DNA from: Desulfobacterales bacterium
GTDB taxonomy: Bacteria > Desulfobacterota > Desulfobacteria > Desulfobacterales > C00003060
DNA: 34,070 bases
Reading direction: 5' to 3'
Assembly (NCBI GenBank): GCA_013375395.1
Contig: JABXJW010000013.1
Location: 1-34,070 of the forward strand
The translations under genes and the position numbers were made by a program. The notes beneath the pieces are model-generated. The model was not told the DNA's origin. It saw nothing but the letters and a program-made list of their open reading frames with translations, and did not search any database. Every line of letters starts with the position of its first letter. Position 1 is the first letter of the stretch. Positions 1-30,814 of the stretch are shown one piece after another.

Positions 1-70
1 ATTGCTCATTTCTGAATTGGAAACTTACGCTAGTGCCAATTGTCTAAAGATTCATTTATGGATGGGCACT
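1..70 (+). mobile_element. MITE-like element, copy 1 (cut by window edge)
   Basis: The first 70 bases match the right-hand part of a roughly 190-bp repeat found complete at 13094-13281 (inverted) and 15973-16162 (same orientation). The end at 70 carries the inverted-repeat type GGATGGGCACT and is followed by AACT (71-74), the reverse complement of the AGTT flanking the equivalent end of the 13 kb copy. No transposase is encoded. The left end lies outside the window. It sits about 35 bp past the 3' end of the antiporter operon. Confidence 0.8.
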
Positions 71-13084: not shown

Positions 13085-13093
13085 CCTCTAGTT

Positions 13094-13281
13094 AGTGCCC
13101 ATCCATAAATGAATTTTTAGACAATTGGCACCAGCGTAAGTTTCCAATTCAGAAATGAGCAATTTTTCGCAAGGTCAAGGAACTCAAGGGATTGCGCGGA
13201 GGCGTACATTGGTACGTCGCACAAGCAATCCCGCAGATTGACGCCGAGATTGCGGAAAAGGGCCATTTCTGGATGGAAACT
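13094..13281 (-). mobile_element. MITE-like element, copy 2, with 4-bp target duplication
   Basis: 188 bp. The ends are inverted repeats of each other with differences (AGTGCCCATCCATAAATG at the left, CATTTCTGGATGGAAACT at the right). AGTT flanks both sides (13090-13093, 13282-13285), the form of a target-site duplication. An internal hairpin runs from GGGATTGC (13188) to GCAATCCC (13232). It is inverted relative to copies 1 and 3. It has no transposase and interrupts the spacer between ctpA and the yibQ-type gene. Confidence 0.82.
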
Positions 13282-13299
13282 AGTTATGACGGAAGACAA

Positions 13300-14505
13300 A
13301 TGACCACCATAAAGAAACGGGCCAGGGTTAAAAAGAAATTTCATTCCTCTCAAGAAAAACTGCCCATATATTTGACTGTTGCGATTGTTGGCCTTTCTAT
13401 CTTTGCGGCGGTATCTGGATACGGATTGTATCGTTTTTTGGGTTCCCACCGGGCTTGCCAGATACCAATCTTTGAGTCAGTTCTTTCCCAAGGCACGGAG
13501 GCCAGTGTCAAACAGATCGACAGGCGCATCTATGATGCGCTGCTGGCCCTAAATATCCATGCCGGTGAAGTAGTATTTAGGTCGGTGGAAACCAGAAGGG
13601 ACAAAGAAGAGGTCTGGACCTTTTCAGAAATGGAAATCCATCTGTCAAGAACCGTGCCGCAAGGGATTGTTGAGTCGGCCTTTTACAAACAATTCTCAGC
13701 TCTTGTTCCAACCACGTCACTTAAATTCTACTTAAGCCCAAACAAAGAGACAATTATTAGCTGTTCAGTGAATGGCCGCCAGACCCACAGCCTCATCTTT
13801 GTGACCGCGCGTGAAAAGAAGCCTGTAGTATCTCCGCCTGACGTGCTGCCTATGGTTGCTATCATTATTGACGACCTTGGCTACGATGAAAAGATGGCCT
13901 CAAAATTCTTGGAACTTGATGCGGGGTTATCTTTTTCAGTTCTCCCCCACAGCCCGTTTCAAAAGAGTATCGCCGCTGCCATTCACCGCAGCGGTCGAGA
14001 TGTCCTTCTTCACCTGCCAATGGAGCCCCTGGAGTATCCTGATGTGGACCCAGGAGAAGGCACTTTGTTGTGTTCTATGTATCCAGACGAGCTTTTGGCT
14101 CAACTAAAAAAAAACTTGGGTTCAGTCCCTTTGGTGGTTGGGGTCAACAACCATATGGGGTCGAGGTTTACCCAAGATTCGGCAAAGATGCGACAGGTAT
14201 TTACCATGCTGAAGATGCGCAACCTGTTTTTCATAGACAGCTTTACAAACCCAGGATCTCATTGCGCCAAAGCAGCTAAACTATTGCAAGTAAAATTTGC
14301 CCGCCGCGACGTTTTCCTGGACCACGCCCAAGATCCTCATTCCATTAGACTGCAGATCAAACGCCTTTTAACCGTTGCAAAGAAAAAGGGTTGGGCTATT
14401 GGGATCGGGCACCCATATCGGGTTACATTAGAGGTGTTGAGAGAGGAACTACCAAATATTGAGCAAGAAGTTAATATTGTTAGGGTCTCACAGCTTGTGA
14501 GTTAG
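13300..14505 (+). CDS. Divergent polysaccharide deacetylase (YibQ/DUF610 family)
   Basis: 401 residues from ATG 13300. In-frame sequence upstream to 13192 is translated MITE, so I reject it. A basic N-terminus and one helix (about 22-42) anchor a periplasmic region. The family domain (about 180-400) has VAIIIDDLGYD with the aspartate pair, LLHLPMEPL, NNHMGSRFT, FFIDSFT and AIGIGHPY, which line the metal site of polysaccharide deacetylase folds. It probably deacetylates a surface or wall glycan. It is commonly found after envC and ctp genes, and this order holds here. Its native spacer has been replaced by the MITE, leaving only 14 bp between the element's AGTT and the start codon; the ribosome site (GGAAGA) is weak. 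Confidence 0.88.
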   Translation: MTTIKKRARVKKKFHSSQEKLPIYLTVAIVGLSIFAAVSGYGLYRFLGSHRACQIPIFESVLSQGTEASVKQIDRRIYDALLALNIHAGEVVFRSVETRRDKEEVWTFSEMEIHLSRTVPQGIVESAFYKQFSALVPTTSLKFYLSPNKETIISCSVNGRQTHSLIFVTAREKKPVVSPPDVLPMVAIIIDDLGYDEKMASKFLELDAGLSFSVLPHSPFQKSIAAAIHRSGRDVLLHLPMEPLEYPDVDPGEGTLLCSMYPDELLAQLKKNLGSVPLVVGVNNHMGSRFTQDSAKMRQVFTMLKMRNLFFIDSFTNPGSHCAKAAKLLQVKFARRDVFLDHAQDPHSIRLQIKRLLTVAKKKGWAIGIGHPYRVTLEVLREELPNIEQEVNIVRVSQLVS

Positions 14506-14560
14506 CGATCTTGTGAGCCGGCTTGAACACCAAGGCTCTTAACGGGTTTGACTCTGTTTT

Positions 14561-15670
14561 TTAGGGTGTCTCAAGGCCTGCCTTTTGTACGATGGCATCG
14601 ATCAACTGTGTGTAAGAAGAGCAGAAGGCTTCCACTCCTTGTTGTTGGATTTCATCACAGATCTTGTCTAAATTTATTCCCAAGACAGCCAGTTGATCCA
14701 AATGCTCTTTTTCTTTGTCAAGATTGTCTTCAATGGTCAACCGTGGCGTACCATGATCAATAAATGCCTCCAGTGTATCGTGTGGCAAGGTATTGATGGT
14801 ATCCTTTCCGATCAATTCGCCAACATATTTTACATCGCTGTAAGCGGGATTCTTCGTGCTTGTGCTTCCCCAAAGCACCCTTTGAATCTGAGCACCTTTA
14901 GATGTTAACCCGTCAATGGCGTCACCGTAGAACAAATCCTTGAATCTTTGGTAGATCATTTTTGCATTTGCCACTGCAATTTTTCCTTTTAGCTTATCAG
15001 TGTTAAGATCTTCAAGTAGCCCATCAACCGATGTGTCCACCCTGCTGATAAATACGCTTGCTACCGAACAAACGTTATTCAACGGGTTTCCATCGCCGAG
15101 CCTGTCTTGAAGCCCACCGATGTAGGCCAAGGCGCTCTCCTCATAGTGCCTTAAGGAAAAAAGTAGTGTCGCATTGACATTGATACCTTCACGGGTTAGG
15201 ACCCTGATAGCCTCTAGTCCCTCTTTGGTCCCAGGCACCTTGATCATCAGGTTCGGCCTTGCAACCTCTTTTTGTATTCTCCTTGCATTTTCAATCGTCT
15301 TTGTTGCATCGTGTGCGTATTCAGGAAGCACCTCAAGGCTTACATAACCATCCCGTCCTTTGGTCTCTTTGTAAGTATCGTACAACAAATCAGCAGCAGA
15401 TTGCACATCTTCCACACTGATCATATCATAGATATTTTCTGCCGACTTTCCTTTATTGGTAATCTCTTGTATGGAAACATCATATACGGAAGATCCATCA
15501 ACTGCCTTTTCAAATATGCTTGGATTGGAAGTCACGCCCTTTATACCCATGGAAAACAGCTTTTTCAGATCTCCGTTAAGGATCAATCGCCTATCTATGT
15601 TGTCATACCAAGGGCTCTGTCCTAATGCATCAAGCGCTGTTAGGTTGTTTGTATGCATGCCGATCTCCAT
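14561..15670 (-). CDS. tal: Transaldolase
   Basis: 369 residues, the length of the longer bacterial transaldolase type (about 370). The Schiff-base lysine is K144 in LMIKVPGT, and the family motifs GVTSNPSIF, NVNATLLFS and RVLWGSTSTKNP are present. It transfers a dihydroxyacetone unit between sugar phosphates in the non-oxidative pentose phosphate pathway. It is convergent with the yibQ-type gene (55 bp apart) and not obviously part of an operon. The start may be M1 (15670) or M5, since both precede a conserved-looking region. Confidence 0.93.
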   Translation of the reverse strand: MEIGMHTNNLTALDALGQSPWYDNIDRRLILNGDLKKLFSMGIKGVTSNPSIFEKAVDGSSVYDVSIQEITNKGKSAENIYDMISVEDVQSAADLLYDTYKETKGRDGYVSLEVLPEYAHDATKTIENARRIQKEVARPNLMIKVPGTKEGLEAIRVLTREGINVNATLLFSLRHYEESALAYIGGLQDRLGDGNPLNNVCSVASVFISRVDTSVDGLLEDLNTDKLKGKIAVANAKMIYQRFKDLFYGDAIDGLTSKGAQIQRVLWGSTSTKNPAYSDVKYVGELIGKDTINTLPHDTLEAFIDHGTPRLTIEDNLDKEKEHLDQLAVLGINLDKICDEIQQQGVEAFCSSYTQLIDAIVQKAGLETP

Positions 15671-15877
15671 TCTTTATTGTATTAATTCAAGCCGTTACCA
15701 TAAAGACAGACAGCCCACAGTCTCTTTGCTCGGCCAGGTCATTTATCCAATACCTGCCCGCCATTGCCATGTGTGCCTGCATTGTCACTACCTGGCGTGC
15801 ATGGCGCTGGCACGCGGGTGCCAGCGTTGAAGCTGTCTGCTGTACCAGCCATTGGCAGACGGGTGGCGGGCATAGAC
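15671..15877. other. Intergenic palindromic element
   Basis: No gene is credible here. CGCTGGCAC (15805-15813) and GTGCCAGCG (15818-15826) form a perfect 9-bp hairpin. Outside it, TGCCCGCCA near 15755 pairs with TGGCGGGCA near 15864-15873, so about 120 bp folds back on itself. No T-run follows on either strand, so it is not a simple terminator. It touches the 91-bp repeat that follows. Confidence 0.5.
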
Positions 15878-15968
15878 GCAATCTCCTGAAAACAAAGAGA
15901 TTGCTTCGTTGTTCGTTCCTCACTCTTCGCAATGACAGCTCGCAATTAAGGGTTTTCATTCAGATACT
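15878..15968 (-). repeat. 91-bp dispersed repeat (R2), copy a
   Basis: The reverse complement matches 30724-30814 over its full 91 bp with about seven differences by eye. It begins AGTATCTGAATGAAAACC at the 15968 end and ends in a hairpin of GCAATCTC and GAGATTGC. AGCT (15969-15972) follows and is shared with MITE copy 3. Confidence 0.8.
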
Positions 15969-15972
15969 AGCT

Positions 15973-16162
15973 AGTTTCCATCCAGAAACGGCCCTTTTCT
16001 CCGCCTCAGGCGGATCAATCTGCGGGATTGCTTGTGCGACGTACCAATGTACGCCTCCGCGCAATCCCTTGAGTTCCTTGACATTGCGAAAAATTGCTCA
16101 TTTCTGAATTGGAAACTTACGCTAGTGCCAATTGTCTAAAGGGCCATTTCTGGATGGAAACT
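15973..16162 (+). mobile_element. MITE-like element, copy 3, with 4-bp target duplication
   Basis: 190 bp with near-perfect terminal inverted repeats (AGTTTCCATCCAGAAACGG and its counterpart CCATTTCTGGATGGAAACT). AGCT flanks both sides (15969-15972, 16163-16166). The core is nearly identical to copy 2, except a small replaced segment near 15993-16010 that contains the palindrome CCGCCTCAGGCGG. All open frames across it are repeat sequence, not genes. Confidence 0.85.
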
Positions 16163-16337
16163 AGCTAGTAATCCTACATATATAATAAGGAATTAACAGT
16201 CAAGGGCTCAACGGAAGTTTAAAATGTGTTATTTTTAAACCAACTAAATTTGTTTTATTCTCTTAATTTTGCTATTGTTTAATAAATACCTTTCCTTTTG
16301 GAAAAACAATCCCGTTTACTACAAATAAGGCTATATT

Positions 16338-30723: not shown

Positions 30724-30814
30724 AGTGTCTGAACGAAAACCTTTAATTGCGAGCTGTGATTGCGAGGAGTGAGGAACGAACGACGACGCAATCTCTTTGT
30801 TTTCAGGAGATTGC
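30724..30814 (+). repeat. 91-bp dispersed repeat (R2), copy b
   Basis: Full-length match to 15878-15968 (inverted). It starts AGTGTCTGAACGAAAACC, is preceded by AGTT (30720-30723), and ends with the hairpin GCAATCTC/GAGATTGC. ATTGCG and CGCAAT make another stem inside. It lies where the upstream part of the next gene should be. Confidence 0.8.

Follow-up and report, generated by a model that had tools for sequence, protein, structure and literature searches.

The window, that is the whole stretch of 34,070 nucleotides analysed here, is one contig (C205) of a source assembly of 4.25 Mb that is 89% complete and divided into 591 contigs. It contains two complete copies of a short repeated element, the first lying directly behind ctpA, together with one end of a third copy at the contig edge, the shared parts being 90-97% alike. 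The inverted ends of these elements are about 18 bp long, are related to GTTTCCATCCAGAAATGG and occur in two types, with the elements carrying neither an ORF of their own nor a transposase ORF. The initial annotation had recognised both complete copies and the contig-edge end, but its coordinates for each were one base too wide on both sides. The revised features are as follows.

1 to 69, plus strand: right part of the third copy, ends GGGCAC, cut at the contig edge
70 to 75, no strand: TAACTA, the remaining flank of the third copy, its partner flank lying off the contig
13089 to 13094, no strand: left target duplication of copy 1, TAGTTA, 6 bp
13095 to 13280, plus strand: MITE copy 1, 186 bp, ends GTGCCCATCCATAAATG and (right) CATTTCTGGATGGAAAC, better-paired hairpin strand plus
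13163 to 13259, plus strand: conserved hairpin core of copy 1 (covariance model R1, 27 bits, E 0.00025)
13281 to 13286, no strand: right target duplication of copy 1, TAGTTA, 6 bp
15968 to 15973, no strand: left target duplication of copy 2, TAGCTA, 6 bp
15974 to 16161, minus strand: MITE copy 2, 188 bp, GTTTCC at both ends, better-paired hairpin strand minus
15974 to 16116, minus strand: hairpin unit of copy 2, 143 bp, GTTTCC...GGAAAC
16162 to 16167, no strand: right target duplication of copy 2, TAGCTA, 6 bp

The description of these repeats as MITEs was borne out, since they are short, lack an ORF of their own and combine terminal inverted repeats with target duplications, many copies and empty orthologous sites of the predicted length. 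It had been proposed that all copies in the genome be collected; a search of the source genome with copy 2 returned about 40 distinct copies, complete or partial, with the ends and flanks of 23 complete copies being aligned. The end motif occurs 146 times in the genome compared to once for a reversed control pattern, and many copies lie at contig edges, as expected for a repeat that breaks assemblies. Two size forms were identified, one of 186-188 bp and one of 260-265 bp carrying a 75-bp insert, both having an outer arm of about 45 bp beyond a hairpin unit of 141-143 bp. Also present in the source genome is a distinct 141-bp element that has GTGTCC as both its ends and is flanked by 6-bp duplications. 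The 143-bp hairpin unit of copy 2 is the portion with the widest sharing among relatives; in copy 2 itself one arm is altered, and model R1 gave no hit to the unit at E≤1.

Of the 23 complete copies, 15 lie between exact 6-bp direct repeats; when right flanks were shuffled among copies in 5000 permutations, the mean was 1.8 and the highest count 8. Among the eight copies lacking it, seven match at 4 or 5 positions and one has an exact 7-bp repeat (1/23). The duplication consensus and preferred target is TANNTA, with the outer base in several copies changed alike on both sides (TAGTTG, TAGTTC, TAGCTT, TAACTT and GAACTA pairs) such that the outermost duplicated base co-varies across the element to an extent reached by none of 2000 permutations. 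The initial annotation had read the flanking repeats as 4 bp with the element starting AGTTTCC, a reading that fits both window copies (outer bases T and A) and that arose because most targets start with T and finish with A, mimicking the element ends. It is the joint change of the outer bases on both flanks that decides for a duplication of 6, rarely 7, bp and, with complete ISNCY elements showing duplications of 6-7 bp too, the 4-bp reading is refuted. The empty sites that had been put forward as a check were found behind ctpA, where three relatives that lack the element (L245, L248 and L251) have 9 nt separating the ctpA stop codon from the next conserved ATG. The window has the same 9-nt spacing after subtraction of the element and one duplication. 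This agreement is one of spacer length, the sequence being too diverged to check the hexamer, and it supports simple insertion with duplication while on its own not separating 4 from 6 bp.

A full-length element sharing these ends and carrying a transposase had also been proposed as a target for searching, and 1.66-1.71-kb ISNCY_1 insertion sequences (ISs) of this description were found in sister species. A pattern search demanding the ends and rejecting the usual MITE interior led to three 1.68-kb elements, 99.6% identical, in a complete genome of the same order, each with one 444-aa ORF. The transposase (L194/L203), scored on one tested ORF among the three, reached 447 bits against NCBIfam NF033593 (ISNCY family transposase; cut-off 325) and also matches Pfam DDE_Tnp_1 and DUF772. 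Searching 33 genomes with NF033593 yielded further complete elements that share these ends and have 6- or 7-bp duplications of the TANNTA type, and the elements obtained include the following.

L205: 1676 bp, TAGATTA on both sides (7 bp), from the genome with the three 1.68-kb elements
L213: 1671 bp, TAGGTA on both sides
L214: 1664 bp, TAATTA on both sides
L215: 1705 bp, TAGCTA on both sides
L216: 1671 bp, TAATTA on both sides
L233: 1671 bp, TATTTA on both sides

Of these, L215 comes from the window's own genus (Desulfobacterales MAG CSMAG_1531) and encodes a transposase scoring 451 bits against NF033593 (cut-off 325). It begins with GTTTCCATCCAGAAATGGCC, in which 20 of 20 bases are identical to the MITE end, and finishes with GGATGGACAC. 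In one complete genome (G090) the six GTGTCCATCCATAAA sites border its six ISNCY copies. The best plasmid relatives, at 45-47% protein identity, are annotated as ISRm17- and ISRle10-like ISNCY elements, with ISRle10 (L265) having GTGCCCGTCCATAAACG ends and a 7-bp TAGTCTA on both sides. At the other extreme of size, a 36-bp element (L173) that comprises little beyond the two ends has TATTTA on each side, an indication that nothing more than the ends may be needed.

The partner ISs also account for the two end types. Single ISNCY elements (L215, L267 and L268) pair a GTTTCC end with a GTGTCC or GTGCCC end, and most MITEs likewise carry GTTTCC and GTG(T/C)CC ends. Because both occur on single ISNCY elements, the end types correspond to left and right ISNCY ends, and recombination between lineages of the element, to which they had been attributed, is not needed. 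Copy 2, with GTTTCC at both ends, differs from all other aligned copies in that its last 24 bp nearly repeat the inverted first 24 bp, suggesting that one end was copied onto the other within the element, across the hairpin.

From the copies with their ends and duplications, the empty sites of the right length and the ISs of sister species we infer that the repeats are very probably MITEs moved in trans, now or recently, by an ISNCY_1-type DDE transposase. In this model the transposase would bind the ends of about 18 bp (GTTTCCATCCAKAAATGG and GTG(T/C)CCATCCAKAAATG) and insert the element at TANNTA, duplicating 6 (sometimes 7) bp. A hairpin core of about 100 nt, conserved in structure and not in sequence, separates the two ends. 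In practical terms, this names the probable mobiliser of a repeat that is abundant in Desulfobacterales and breaks assemblies. Mobilisation by another IS family, such as IS1634, which also makes short duplications, or ISNCY_2, is very unlikely; both are present in these genomes, but none of the fetched IS1634 and ISNCY_2 loci was bordered by these ends whereas the ISNCY_1 loci are.

The initial annotation had expected a transposase elsewhere in the genome; no ISNCY_1 transposase was found in the incomplete source genome, but ISNCY_1 ISs with the same ends and duplications are present in the same genus and order. When a hidden autonomous copy was sought at those contig edges of the source genome that bear ends, all but two proved to be ordinary MITE interiors, the exceptions being IS21-like sequence beside a MITE end and an altered MITE. 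Orphan ends at five further loci (L049, L180, L187, L191 and L192) had no bordering transposases, and blastn-level searches of plasmid and phage collections turned up nothing related to the MITE. Repeated ISs readily drop out of assemblies such as this one of 591 contigs.

The window MITEs resemble the ISNCY_1-type ISs, which have ISRle10 and ISRm17 as annotated relatives, in their ends, in their 6-7-bp TA-rich duplications and in occurring in the same genus and genomes. They differ in lacking a transposase gene and in having a hairpin as interior. As no clear sequence beyond the ends is shared between MITE and IS, the MITEs did not arise simply by internal deletion from the observed ISs. The partner ISs probably belong to the ISDol1 group. 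ISDol1 has been classified as a subfamily of ISNCY (digIS, PMC8147514). The view that no described family has these ends therefore needs qualification, since the ends belong to a described IS group with ISRle10 and ISRm17 as relatives; it stands for the MITE and its hairpin, as literature searches on the hairpin and on ISNCY MITEs of these bacteria returned nothing relevant.

An almost gap-free alignment is obtained for 142-143-bp elements from many genera, which form a single long hairpin whose middle stem is highly variable in sequence yet remains complementary. Covariation is very strong in this hairpin, which measures roughly 141-145 bp. In an alignment made by sequence only (A1), 94.3% of cells are paired and both sides have changed in 25 of 53 pairs, with covariation of 0.354 compared to 0.158 when shuffled and at most 0.086 with partners slid, the A1 structure being drawn from the fold of one member and so favouring the true register somewhat. 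The covariance model R1, representing the core without the ends, matched in 93 of 147 genomes of a class sample and in 36 of 198 genomes of a phylum sample. Among 54 rows of R1 matches (alignment A3, fitted to R1 and including two rows that are opposite-strand readings of other rows), 32 of 33 pairs change on both sides and covariation rises to 0.698 against 0.193 shuffled and at most 0.128 slid. On one strand G-T pairs outnumber A-C mismatches by 118 to 13 in A1 and by 128 to 27 in A3. The unpaired motifs CAAGG, ACCGSAGG, CGAGGAT and AACGC are more conserved than the stems. Comparison with Rfam 15 gave no match, either for the window at the gathering threshold or for seven related loci at E≤1.

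The core was also found away from ISNCY ends. Several R1 matches have closing stems unrelated to these ends, including a single copy lying between a glnB-like gene and nifD (L316). Other families carrying the core, all 139-145 bp long, have ends and target duplications of their own, although each count rests on few copies. Exact 4-bp repeats flank six of ten copies with GGGTRTCT ends (permutation mean 0.7) and 4-bp repeats four of six with GGCTGYCT ends, while 3-bp repeats flank five of seven copies with ACTCRA ends and 6-bp repeats all three with GTGCCTGACC ends. Ends of the 4-bp and 3-bp duplication classes include GGGTRTCTTGAAAAAT and ACTCGATCATCAAG, respectively. In DDE transposition the length of the duplication is set by the transposase, so that with the lengths differing the same core appears, as read from duplication lengths and ends, to be carried by at least three transposase systems. 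Its recurrence under unrelated closing stems and with duplications of other lengths marks the core as a module that does not depend on the ISNCY ends. A broader proposal, which we advance tentatively and at somewhat below an even chance, is that a structured module, either RNA or a strand-specific DNA hairpin, is spread across the phylum (Desulfobacterota-type bacteria), travels inside MITEs and has changed its transposase system such that three or more systems, with duplications of 3, 4 and 6 bp and ends that are unrelated, have carried it, the fold and a length of about 141-145 bp being kept while the closing stem was replaced.

Selection on an RNA, selection on a single-stranded DNA hairpin and correction between the arms are each a possible reason for the fold having been kept. 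The first two can be taken together in the proposal that the core is a functional structured RNA or strand-specific ssDNA hairpin that is under selection and has acquired the ends of several transposases, for which the probability falls just short of one half. In keeping with this, covariation in A1 and A3 is well above both the shuffled and the slid controls, G-T far exceeds A-C on one strand, unpaired motifs are more conserved than stems, and the core occurs with other closing stems, in some cases in single-copy settings such as that between nif genes (L316). Against this proposal, no transcript was seen, there is no Rfam match, and the better-paired strand is mostly antisense between co-directional genes (28 to 5; mixed sample, ORFs called mechanically), such that read-through mRNA would usually carry the weaker structure. 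The better-paired strand has no orientation bias in the source genome, and with the mixed sample biased to antisense and the source genome unbiased no firm conclusion is drawn from orientation. A selected RNA on the gene-sense transcript is weakened by both observations.

The alternative is that template switching from arm to arm (quasipalindrome correction) keeps the hairpin, yielding compensatory changes without structural selection, the core then being an old palindromic MITE interior. Copy 2 appears to show such copying over 24 bp and the total length stays near 140-145 bp across end classes, yet template switching alone leaves unexplained the conserved internal loops, the one-strand excess of G-T over A-C and the presence of the same core with unrelated ends, and we regard it as a serious possibility that is nonetheless rather less than evenly likely. 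The G-T excess, like the conservation of the internal loops, argues for something beyond arm correction.

Correia/NEMIS, ERIC, BOX and RUP are likewise small repeats that form hairpins and lie dispersed among genes; the window family is likened to them by description and not by sequence. None of these is known to us to combine a single covarying core with several unrelated kinds of end. A MITE family is ordinarily recognised by its ends and regarded as the remains of a single IS. Here conservation lies in the interior instead of the ends, and one covarying hairpin is found with several end types through much of a phylum. The ISNCY-type MITE family is another case of a known kind of element, and the hairpin under different ends is what is new and the part worth following. 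If confirmed, it would allow the role of a MITE interior to be tested and would be a clear example of a transposase change by a non-coding element.

Two described bacterial MITEs are comparable on the basis of their published descriptions. QMITE2 of Coxiella burnetii is about 190 bp long with 7-9-bp repeats and, like the window family, is a MITE that forms a stable stem-loop and has homologues in further groups (PMC5896051). It belongs to another host group and is not known to swap ends between transposase systems or to have been analysed for covariation. The Chunjie MITEs of Geobacter uraniireducens (178-235 bp, 38 copies) are similar to the window MITEs in size, copy number, inverted and direct repeats and non-disruptive insertion into an operon (review PMC10969869).

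The mechanically called open reading frame downstream of MITE copy 1 (window 13192-14505) has its start within the MITE itself. An ATG at 13286 aligns to the ATG of the relatives and is followed by an early stop, such that the true start of this reading frame is uncertain, and insertion of copy 1 may have supplied it with a new start region.

The window holds a second kind of dispersed repeat, roughly 90 bp long, at two places in inverted orientation (15878-15967 and 30725-30814; 92% alike), with an end GTRTCTGAAYGAAAACC adjoining TAGCTA or TAGTTA and an inner palindrome, GAGATTGC/GCAATCTC. MITE copy 2 directly adjoins this repeat, TAGCTA being common to both, and the repeat may represent one end of a further element of this type. 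Elsewhere in this genome (G000; locus L109 on contig C413) a MITE end is followed about 35 bp on by sequence like the end of an IS21-type element.

Adjacency was also seen among the ISNCY elements, with two ISNCY_1 elements arranged head to tail 1677 bp apart in the complete genome G090 (C1:2207811-2209502) and likewise adjacent ISNCY elements with TAGCTA between them at loci L235, L267 and L268.

The hairpin core occurs in other arrangements, with three to four tandem cores on the same strand at a spacing of about 145-180 bp in genome G029 (loci L382 and L383). In genome G038 (locus L316), a glnB-like gene and nifD flank a single-copy core whose closing stem is unrelated to insertion sequence ends.
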